Positions 12,008 to 18,487 of a stretch of DNA of 64,000 bases are shown one piece after another. The translations under genes and the position numbers were made by a program. The notes beneath the pieces were generated by a model. It searched no databases and was not told where the DNA came from. It saw only the letters and a list, made by a program, of their open reading frames with translations. Every line of letters begins with the position of its first letter. Positions within the stretch are counted from its first letter, which is position 1. The DNA comes from Phenylobacterium sp. (lineage in GTDB: Bacteria > Pseudomonadota > Alphaproteobacteria > Caulobacterales > Caulobacteraceae), in the NCBI RefSeq assembly GCF_004799515.1, contig NZ_SSMX01000036.1, positions 87,909-151,908 on the forward strand. Reading direction: 5' to 3'.

Positions 12008-12191
12008 CTCGTAAAACCTTCACGTAAATCCCCCAAGCCGCACAATATTACATGGGGCCGCGCATCTGGGAATGCATCGCCGCCTCCACGCTCCGGGACC
12101 TGACGCCGCGGCCACGGAACCCAAGGTCCATTTCAGGCATTGCGTCTCAACGGCTTTCTGCGTGGCCGGCGGGCTGGATTGGGGGGATTCC

Positions 12192-14648
12192 TTGAGGGCG
12201 GGCGACGCATCTGGTCCGGACATCCCGCCAGGATTCCTGCGGAGCGGCGGCGAGATGGGCGCGCGCATCGCGGCCTATGACTGGTCCGGCTCCCTGGGCG
12301 CGATCGAGACCTGGCCCGGCAGCCTGAGGACCACCGTCGGCCTCCTGCTGCATTCGAGCGTCCCGATCGTTCTCCTGTGGGGCGAAGACGGGGTCATGAT
12401 CTACAACGACGCCTACTCGGTGTTCGCCGGCGGCCGGCACCCGGAACTCCTGGGCAGCAAGGTGCGCGAGGGCTGGCCGGAAGTAGCTGCGTTCAACGAC
12501 AACGTCATGCGGGTCGGCCTGGCCGGCGGGACCCTGGCCTACAAGGACCAGGTGCTGGTCCTCAACCGCACCGGCAAGGCCGAGCAGGCCTGGATGAACT
12601 TGGACTACTCGCCGGTCATCGACGAGACCGGCGCGCCAGGCGGAGTGATCGCCATCGTCGTCGAGACGACGGAGCGGGTGCCGGCCGAGCGCCGCCAGCT
12701 CGAGGCCACCGAGCGGCAGCGCCAACAGTTCGAACAGGCGCCCGGCTTCATCATCGTGATGGAGGGCCCCGAGCATGTGGTCGCCTTCGTCAACAACGCC
12801 CACCGCCGGGTGTTCGCCAGCGACGGCTGGGAGGGCATGACCATCCGGGAAGCCTTCCCCAGCATCGCGGACCAGGGCTTCTACGAGATCCTCGACCAGG
12901 TCTATGCGACGGGGGAAGCCGTCGAGTTCGAGGCGGCGGAGGTCCGCTACCGCCGCGTCCGCGATGGGCCGGAAGAGACGCGTCACCTGACCTTCGTCTA
13001 TGCCCCGATCCTCGACGTGACCGGCGTGGTCTCTGGCGTGTTCTGCGAGGGCTTCGACGTCACCGAGGCGCACAAGGCCAACGTGGCCTTGCGGGAGCTG
13101 AACACCGACCTTGAACGCAAGGTCGTCGAGAGGACCCAGGCCCGCGCCCTGACCTGGCAGGTGAGCCCCGACCTGATGGGCGCGCTGAACTCGCAAGGCT
13201 ATTTCGAGACCTCCAACCCCGCCTGGCAGACCATCCTCGGATGGAGCGAGGCTGAGGTGGCCAGCACGTCGATCTTCGAACTGCTGCACCCCGACGACCT
13301 GGAGCGCACCCGCGAGGGGTTCGCGCTGACCCAGATCGGCCAGCCGGCGATCCGCTTCCCGAACCGCTACCGCTGCAAGGACGGAAGCTACCGCTGGATC
13401 TCCTGGGTGGGCGTGCCGGAAGAGGGGATGGTCTACTGCACCGGCCGCGACATCACCGAGGAGAAGGCGGCGGAGGTTGAACTGGCCGCCGCCCAGGAAG
13501 CGTTGCGCCAGGCGCAGAAGATGGAGGCGGTGGGCCAGCTCACCGGCGGCCTGGCGCACGACTTCAACAACCTCCTGGCCGGCATCAGCGGCAGCCTGGA
13601 GATGCTGGAGAAGCGCATCGGCGAGGGGCGGCTGAGCGGCGCCGAACGCTACATCACCGCCGCGCAGTCGGGCGCGCGCCGGGCCGCGGCCCTGACCCAG
13701 CGCCTGCTGGCCTTCGCGCGCCGCCAGACGCTCGATCCCAAGCCCACCGACATCAACCGGCTGATCGGCGGCATGGAGGACCTGATCCGCCGCACCGTCG
13801 GCCCCACGGTGGAGCTGGAGGTGGTGGGCGCGGGCGGCCTCTGGATGACCCGGGTCGACGCCTCGCAGCTGGAAAGCTCGCTCTTGAACCTCTGCCTGAA
13901 CGGCCGCGACGCCATGGCCCCGGACGGCGGCCGGCTGACCATCGAGACCGCCAACAAGTGGCTGGACGAGCGCGCCGCCCGCGAGCGCGAATTGCCGCCC
14001 GGCCAGTACGTGTCGCTCTGCGTCACCGACACCGGCACGGGCATGGACGCCGAGACCATGGCGCGGGCCTTCGATCCCTTCTTCACCACCAAGCCGCTGG
14101 GGCAGGGCACGGGGCTTGGCCTCTCCATGACCTACGGCTTCGTGCGCCAGTCGGGCGGCCAGGTGCGGATCTATTCGGAGATCGGCAAGGGCACGACCAT
14201 GTGCCTCTACCTGCCGCGCTATGCCGGCGCGATGGACGAGGCTGACGAGAGCGAGCCCGCGGCCGCCGTGGATCGGGGCGACGGCGAGACCGTGCTGGTG
14301 ATCGACGACGAGCCCACGGTGCGGATGCTGATCGTCGAGGTGCTGGAAGAGAACGGCTATTCGGCCATCGAGGCGGCGGACGGGCCCTCGGGCCTGCGCG
14401 TCCTGCAGTCCGATGCGCGTATCGACCTCCTGATCAGCGATGTCGGCCTGCCCGGCGGCCTCAACGGCCGCCAGATCGCCGACGCGGCCCGCCAGACCCG
14501 GCCGAACCTCAAGGTGCTGTTCATCACCGGCTATGCGGAGAACGCCGCGGTCGGCAACGGCCACCTCGACGCCGGCATGGAGATCGTCACCAAGCCCTTC
14601 GCCATCGCCACCCTGGGCGCGAAGATCCGTGAACTGATCGACCGGTGA
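12192..14648 (+). CDS. PAS-domain hybrid histidine kinase with C-terminal receiver
   Basis: The protein is about 818 residues from TTG 12192, chosen because GGGGGG lies just upstream; the track's ATG at 12072 has no ribosome binding site. No membrane span is visible, so it is cytoplasmic. There are three PAS-like regions (about 40-155, 175-300, 330-430). A HisKA helix follows with the phospho-acceptor in LAHDFNNLLAG, then an ATPase domain with NLCLNGRDAM (N box), DTGTGMD and GQGTGLGLSM (G boxes), and a receiver with VLVIDDEP, the acceptor Asp in LLISDVGLPGG and the Lys in IVTKPFA. No response regulator gene adjoins it. The signal is unknown. Confidence 0.88.
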   Translation: MRAGDASGPDIPPGFLRSGGEMGARIAAYDWSGSLGAIETWPGSLRTTVGLLLHSSVPIVLLWGEDGVMIYNDAYSVFAGGRHPELLGSKVREGWPEVAAFNDNVMRVGLAGGTLAYKDQVLVLNRTGKAEQAWMNLDYSPVIDETGAPGGVIAIVVETTERVPAERRQLEATERQRQQFEQAPGFIIVMEGPEHVVAFVNNAHRRVFASDGWEGMTIREAFPSIADQGFYEILDQVYATGEAVEFEAAEVRYRRVRDGPEETRHLTFVYAPILDVTGVVSGVFCEGFDVTEAHKANVALRELNTDLERKVVERTQARALTWQVSPDLMGALNSQGYFETSNPAWQTILGWSEAEVASTSIFELLHPDDLERTREGFALTQIGQPAIRFPNRYRCKDGSYRWISWVGVPEEGMVYCTGRDITEEKAAEVELAAAQEALRQAQKMEAVGQLTGGLAHDFNNLLAGISGSLEMLEKRIGEGRLSGAERYITAAQSGARRAAALTQRLLAFARRQTLDPKPTDINRLIGGMEDLIRRTVGPTVELEVVGAGGLWMTRVDASQLESSLLNLCLNGRDAMAPDGGRLTIETANKWLDERAARERELPPGQYVSLCVTDTGTGMDAETMARAFDPFFTTKPLGQGTGLGLSMTYGFVRQSGGQVRIYSEIGKGTTMCLYLPRYAGAMDEADESEPAAAVDRGDGETVLVIDDEPTVRMLIVEVLEENGYSAIEAADGPSGLRVLQSDARIDLLISDVGLPGGLNGRQIADAARQTRPNLKVLFITGYAENAAVGNGHLDAGMEIVTKPFAIATLGAKIRELIDR

Positions 14649-14677
14649 GGGACGGCGGCCTCGCGCGCGACGCGGGC

Positions 14678-14706
14678 TTGACGACCAGAACAAAAGGAGA
14701 ATAAGA
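14678..14706 (+). promoter_or_regulatory. Candidate promoter of sidA (-35 and -10)
   Basis: TTGACG at 14678-14683 is followed after 17 bases by ATAAGA at 14701-14706. The spacing is ideal, and the LexA box starts inside the -10, so LexA binding would block RNA polymerase. Transcription would start near 14713, about 50 bases before the sidA start codon. Confidence 0.6.
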
Positions 14707-14719
14707 ACGAACCCGGAAC
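14705..14719 (+). promoter_or_regulatory. LexA (SOS) box upstream of sidA-dnaE
   Basis: The sequence GAACGAACCCGGAAC is an exact GAAC-N7-GAAC, the reverse complement of the alphaproteobacterial SOS box GTTC-N7-GTTC. It overlaps the -10 of the candidate promoter and lies 44 bases upstream of the 29-codon sidA frame. A second exact box of the same type sits before lexA in this window, which shows the consensus applies in this genome. Confidence 0.8.
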
Positions 14720-14763
14720 GTGATCGCGGCTGTCCACAGCCGGCCCACAGGAGGATGCGACCG

Positions 14764-14853
14764 ATGGTTCGTCTGGCCCGAGAATCACTGGCCTTTGTGT
14801 CGGTGGCGAGTTTTGTCTGGATGATGTGCTCGGTGGCGGCGCACATGGGCTGA
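14764..14853 (+). CDS. sidA: SidA-like SOS-induced cell division inhibitor (29 aa)
   Basis: This complete 29-codon frame is too short for the ORF track. It begins MVRLARES, continues with one hydrophobic span (about residues 9-26, ending [14 protein letters not shown]) and stops at TGA 14851-14853. AGGAGG lies nine bases before the ATG, and an exact LexA box with a matching promoter lies further upstream. In Caulobacter crescentus, SidA is a 29-residue single-span inner membrane protein made in the SOS response that stops division by acting on FtsW and FtsN. Length, topology, SOS control and position by a core replication gene all fit. I lack the reference sequence for a residue-by-residue comparison. 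Confidence 0.85.
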
Positions 14854-14882
14854 CCGCCATGCGGATGGGAGAGGCGGCAGGC

Positions 14883-18356
<3,474 letters not shown>

Positions 18357-18366
18357 CCCTCCGCCG

Positions 18367-18487
18367 CTCATCCCGGCGAAGGCCGGGATTCAGGTCTAGA
18401 ATCTCAGCGAGCAATTGGACGGACTCTGGGTTCATGGAGCCCACATCTGAGCCATTCCATCTGGGTCCCGGCCTTCGCCGGGACGAG
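18367..18487. repeat. Inverted-repeat element (REP/MITE-like), copy with CCCGGCGAAGGCCGGG arms
   Basis: Two 27-base arms at 18367-18393 and 18461-18487 are inverted copies with four mismatches, flanking 67 bases. Each arm contains CCCGGCGAAGGCCGGG, itself a 6-bp hairpin. Elements of this type are scattered between genes in many alphaproteobacteria. This one follows dnaE by 11 bases and may also work as its transcription terminator. The rest of the 336-base gap before rpsB (18488-18692) holds the rpsB promoter and leader. Confidence 0.75.

Follow-up and report, generated by a model that had tools for sequence, protein, structure and literature searches.

A predicted SidA division inhibitor encoded before dnaE in Phenylobacterium sp., and the tandem LexA-type sites of its promoter

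The sidA locus

The window analysed here, a stretch of 64,000 nucleotides from the 4.7-Mb genome of a Phenylobacterium sp. (assembly GCF_004799515.1, contig NZ_SSMX01000036.1), carries a frame of 29 codons just ahead of dnaE, the gene for the alpha subunit of DNA polymerase III. The frame is preceded by a promoter, two LexA-type sites and a Shine-Dalgarno sequence (Table 1). An earlier note on this DNA had picked out the single-span frame, its AGGAGG ribosome site, a promoter composed of TTGACG and ATAAGA with a spacer of 17, and an exact LexA box, and all of these are present as it described them. Its account of the regulatory region was right as to the downstream box but began too late, since the region starts with the -35 element; one operator had been seen and the second LexA-type site, farther upstream, had been overlooked.

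Table 1. Features of the sidA-dnaE region (window coordinates)
Feature	Position	Strand	Remarks
-35 element TTGACG	14678-14683	+	CTTGAC shared by the Phenylobacterium promoters aligned in the correct orientation
Upstream LexA-type site GAACAAAAGGAGAAT	14688-14702	+	Differs once from the consensus, with T instead of C in the final position, a base shared with the -10
-10 element ATAAGA (or AATAAG)	14701-14706 (or 14700-14705)	+	GAATAAG conserved in Phenylobacterium
Downstream LexA-type site GAACGAACCCGGAAC	14705-14719	+	Exact
Shine-Dalgarno AGGAGG	14749-14754	+	Nine bases 5' of the ATG at 14764; purine-rich stretch similarly placed in relatives
sidA	14764-14853	+	29 codons and stop TGA (14851-14853); one hydrophobic span
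dnaE, DNA polymerase III alpha subunit	14859-18356	+	Identified in the earlier note and by sequence

When the translation was run through hmmscan against NCBIfam, the sole match was NF033228, the curated NCBI equivalog model for the cell division inhibitor SidA, with 63.8 bits over residues 1-26 against a cut-off of 35 bits; a Pfam search with the same translation matched no model. As a control, NF033228 also finds matches in the genome of Caulobacter vibrioides. The Kyte-Doolittle hydropathy of the protein reaches its maximum, 1.87, over residues 8-26, which predicts a short N-terminal R-x-x-R-E head followed by a single membrane helix. Judged by its sequence, the frame is SidA, the identity that had been proposed for it. 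The family is already catalogued, and the Phenylobacterium gene adds one member to a curated family. Another in-frame ATG, at 14755, would give a protein of 32 residues; this start was dropped because it abuts the AGGAGG and because conservation among relatives begins only from the second ATG. On the minus strand, an open frame of 2074 codons (12147-18371) runs antisense to a kinase gene, sidA and dnaE, and is most likely a side effect of codon usage at high G+C.

SidA among the Caulobacteraceae

The SidA of C. crescentus, 29 residues long, is an SOS-induced division inhibitor located in the inner membrane; it binds FtsW and, to some extent, FtsN, and does not dismantle the divisome (PMC4211646). 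The Phenylobacterium protein, known here from sequence alone, resembles it in its 29 residues, in the conserved R-E-S-L-A and FVWM motifs and in the LexA-type box upstream of the gene. It is about 76% identical to Caulobacter orthologues and 88% identical, over residues 1-25, to the record of C. vibrioides T5M6, which together with NF033228 represents SidA of the C. crescentus type strain in these comparisons. DidA, another small inner-membrane inhibitor of the late divisome in C. crescentus, is described as SOS-independent and as binding FtsN (PMC4211646). SulA of E. coli, YneA of Bacillus and SosA of Staphylococcus are, like SidA, division inhibitors induced by the SOS response. To our knowledge, none of the three is related to SidA in sequence, and the target of SulA is FtsZ. 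YneA is reported to act on FtsW (PMC13396833), which makes its target a parallel to that of SidA.

Of 199 Caulobacteraceae genomes, 157, spread over 20 of the 22 genera, gave matches in a search with a single sequence, the weakest of which, reaching E = 1, are putative relatives. With a profile of 35 diverse SidA sequences, searched across the whole order, the protein was present in all Caulobacteraceae genomes among the matches listed, and the rest of the order yielded only partial, weak matches, the best of which (E 7e-4) falls inside a 260-aa frame. NF033228 at its own cut-off recovers 34 of 299 genomes, and 49 at E 0.001. The cut-off of 35 bits thus misses many divergent but syntenic orthologues, in the genus designated g3 and in others, so that annotation may be overlooking sidA in some branches of the family. 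The warning that the present frame would be lost in a routine annotation was nevertheless too strong, since NCBI holds a curated model for SidA and the frame passes it easily: the Phenylobacterium gene is recognisable to standard annotation, and it is the divergent members, many of them under the cut-off, that may be missed. A Caulobacter genome carries a second SidA-like peptide, MTRLIRETLAFAAAATFVWAVCVGALVVGDLFRSLPA, of 37 residues (L050, G022:C3:315111-315185, reverse strand), which scores 29.7 bits with NF033228, below the cut-off, and whose start overlaps the stop of the upstream frame; no adjoining dnaE was detected there, and the 250 bases upstream hold no exact LexA box.

With an aligned start, SidA has exactly 29 residues in 127 of 131 non-redundant loci and 30 or 31 in the other four, a few of the 29-residue readings beginning one codon past the real ATG and hence standing for 30, while the apparent GTT or GTC starts are alignment offsets. 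Over the same 131 loci, majority identity averages 0.82 at first, 0.90 at second and 0.66 at third codon positions. The variation among orthologues is mostly synonymous, dN is below dS in all comparisons listed, and synonymous codons are free at most conserved residues. In a set of 95 different 29-residue peptides, V18 never varies, and S13, F17, W19, M20, R6 and V14 hardly do. Substitutions of this kind indicate that selection acts on the amino-acid sequence of the predicted membrane helix of SidA. Similarity to SidA and conservation among relatives, on which the earlier reading had staked itself, are both found, and the arrangement it had proposed, the frame lying between a LexA-type box and dnaE, recurs at 131 of 131 loci.

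LexA-type sites of the sidA promoter

The pattern GAACN7GAAC is matched three times in the window against 1.16 expected, an excess of about 2.6-fold. In the whole genome it has 98 exact matches, compared with 54 for the reversed control pattern; nearly half of the genome-wide matches may be due to chance. Given the window count, a box is by itself weak evidence, and it is the position that counts. Indeed, with the orientation set by the sidA match at each locus, 98 of the 131 sidA loci have an exact box no farther than 110 bases upstream and on the strand of the gene, versus 1 of 1096 control windows; the other 33 loci have a one-mismatch box upstream, and no box in the opposite orientation was found upstream of sidA at any of the 131. 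Elsewhere in this genome, such boxes precede recA, uvrA and imuA-like genes. A scan with a generic sigma-70 consensus did not score the sidA promoter; conservation across relatives supports its assignment, as read from an alignment of upstream regions in which only correctly oriented rows were used (L005, L006, L008, L010, L012, L020 and L029, in the wrong orientation, were left aside, as were the column statistics).

Two further groups of genes in this genome lie behind exact boxes. Four paralogues, each roughly 190 residues long (L172, L199, L201 and L203, at G000:C12:109166, C31:41731, C34:179476 and C36:47301), for which Pfam and NCBIfam gave no significant match, start at an ATG placed immediately after an exact GTTCN7GTTC LexA-type box that is itself preceded by TTGAC, and possibly form a leaderless SOS-controlled family. 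The string GTTCN7GTTCATG occurs five times in this genome and not once as the reversed control, T-rich versions of it recur in other Caulobacteraceae, and the early SOS genes ccna_01391 and ccna_02355 of C. crescentus carry a similar box, GTTCttgttatGTTC. The second group comprises two ImuA-like proteins (L182 and L193, G000:C17 and C21), one of which has a weak NCBIfam ImuA match over its N-terminal 70 residues and the other none; this suggests two SOS mutagenesis cassettes.

At the window locus, the two LexA-type sites are offset by 17 bp. Pairs of sites 16-18 bp apart, each with at most one mismatch, are found in 120 of the 131 sidA promoters, a count to be read in the light of the ancestry that related loci share, which makes them non-independent. 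Dinucleotide shuffles of the same stretches gave a mean of 0.07 pairs and a maximum of 1, and none of 720 control windows in dnaE held two sites. The pair is kept across genera despite differing spacers, and some Caulobacter sidA promoters have three LexA-type sites, at -64, -48 and -30. Of 53 other exact boxes in the genome, only the recA box is accompanied by another site 14-20 bp away; the recA promoter (L189, G000:C19:322822) has an exact GAACATCTTGCGAAC and then, 18 bp away, a one-mismatch GAACAAACTGGGTAC. Two adjacent LexA boxes are known in E. coli, at the colicin genes and at lexA. The sidA promoter would resemble these in combining two adjacent operators with tight repression; it differs in that its operators are the alphaproteobacterial direct repeat GAACN7GAAC, whereas those of E. 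coli are palindromes. What appears to be new here is the presence of tandem LexA-type sites in a layout conserved over nearly the whole of the Caulobacteraceae.

One possible model, to which we give roughly even odds, assumes that two LexA dimers, or three in some Caulobacter, sit side by side on the tandem direct repeats, and that this is a conserved device of the Caulobacteraceae for tightly repressing a toxic division inhibitor, the upstream operator yielding its final position to the -10 and dnaE lying on the same SOS-responsive transcript. That LexA would occupy both operators is something we infer, without direct precedent. The upstream site usually ends in T or A, a base shared with the -10 motif GAATAAG, which is suggestive of a trade-off between the needs of operator and promoter. 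The same overlap can be turned the other way. The upstream site might be merely the spacer and the -10 of a conserved promoter, with LexA acting on a single site: its last four bases, GAAT, fall within GAATAAG, and in C. crescentus about 97% of SOS promoters are single-box according to PMC12700426, which also gives the sidA promoter as early and strong. This explanation does not account for the outer GAAC, 11 bases farther upstream, which is intact in 120 of 120 pairs, or for the A-richness of the first spacer bases, a feature also of the recA, imuA and dnaG boxes. Moreover, the pair survives with one mismatch in each of its sites at 29 loci, and the upstream site is the only exact one at 16 (both are exact at 5). 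We therefore consider a single-site promoter rather unlikely.

Linkage to dnaE and proposed function

The likely ATG of dnaE lies 5 bases past the sidA stop, as it does in most of the closest relatives, and the two genes are therefore probably one operon; their co-transcription, too, would be without direct precedent. On the same strand and downstream of sidA, dnaE is found at 131 of 131 loci, with a gap that very seldom exceeds about 100 bases. The DnaE codon that matches residue 25 of the window protein follows the sidA stop at a median distance of 57 bases, and at 128 of the 131 loci this distance does not exceed 150; a tally of first dnaE ATGs includes upstream in-frame ATGs and is not a start map. 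So constant a neighbour, with an ATG so close to the sidA stop and, in most of the closest relatives, no clear ribosome site of its own, might suggest that the small frame is mainly a leader coupling the translation of dnaE to SOS signals, its peptide being secondary. We think this very improbable: it is the amino-acid sequence of the helix that appears to be under selection, the distance to dnaE is not constant among genera, and the C. crescentus SidA has been shown to inhibit division (PMC4211646). Translational coupling could coexist with the function of SidA, not replace it. Within sidA, no promoter is evident for dnaE, presumably an essential gene, and synonymous conservation is not unusual. 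The possibility that frame and box both arose by chance, which the modest excess of boxes in window and genome might favour, is ruled out by conservation, given the family-wide orthologues, their synonymous variation, the fixed site before dnaE and the match to a curated model.

The reading that we prefer, with a probability of about 0.93, is that of a Phenylobacterium SidA orthologue under the control of LexA on two operators, a division inhibitor made upon damage, whose transcript probably includes dnaE as well. By occupying two adjacent operators, which span the -10 region and the stretch immediately after it, LexA would keep the sidA promoter off. Upon DNA damage, active RecA would bring about the self-cleavage of LexA and hence the expression of sidA, and the 29-residue peptide would then restrain the FtsW/FtsI/FtsN septal synthesis complex from the inner membrane until repair is complete. 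LexA repression, damage induction, membrane insertion and the FtsW and FtsN targets are all proposed by analogy with C. crescentus, in which FtsW(A31K) blocks SidA binding and escapes SidA (PMC4211646). The Phenylobacterium genome has an FtsW that is 70% identical to a Caulobacter FtsW; orthology and the presence of FtsW make the same mechanism of SidA most likely here. Residue 31 of FtsW is alanine in the Caulobacter protein compared and valine in that of Phenylobacterium, and F145 is kept. The difference at residue 31 counts against the preferred reading, as does the one-base departure of the upstream LexA-type site, part of whose conservation could stem from the -10.

SidA, a protein studied in C. 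crescentus, is thus near-universal among the Caulobacteraceae genomes sampled and fixed beside the gene of the replicative polymerase. The conserved double operator would offer a testable reason for the silence of a lethal peptide placed under a strong promoter, and other SOS promoters that have been scored as single-box by exact consensus may conceal a second, near-consensus box.
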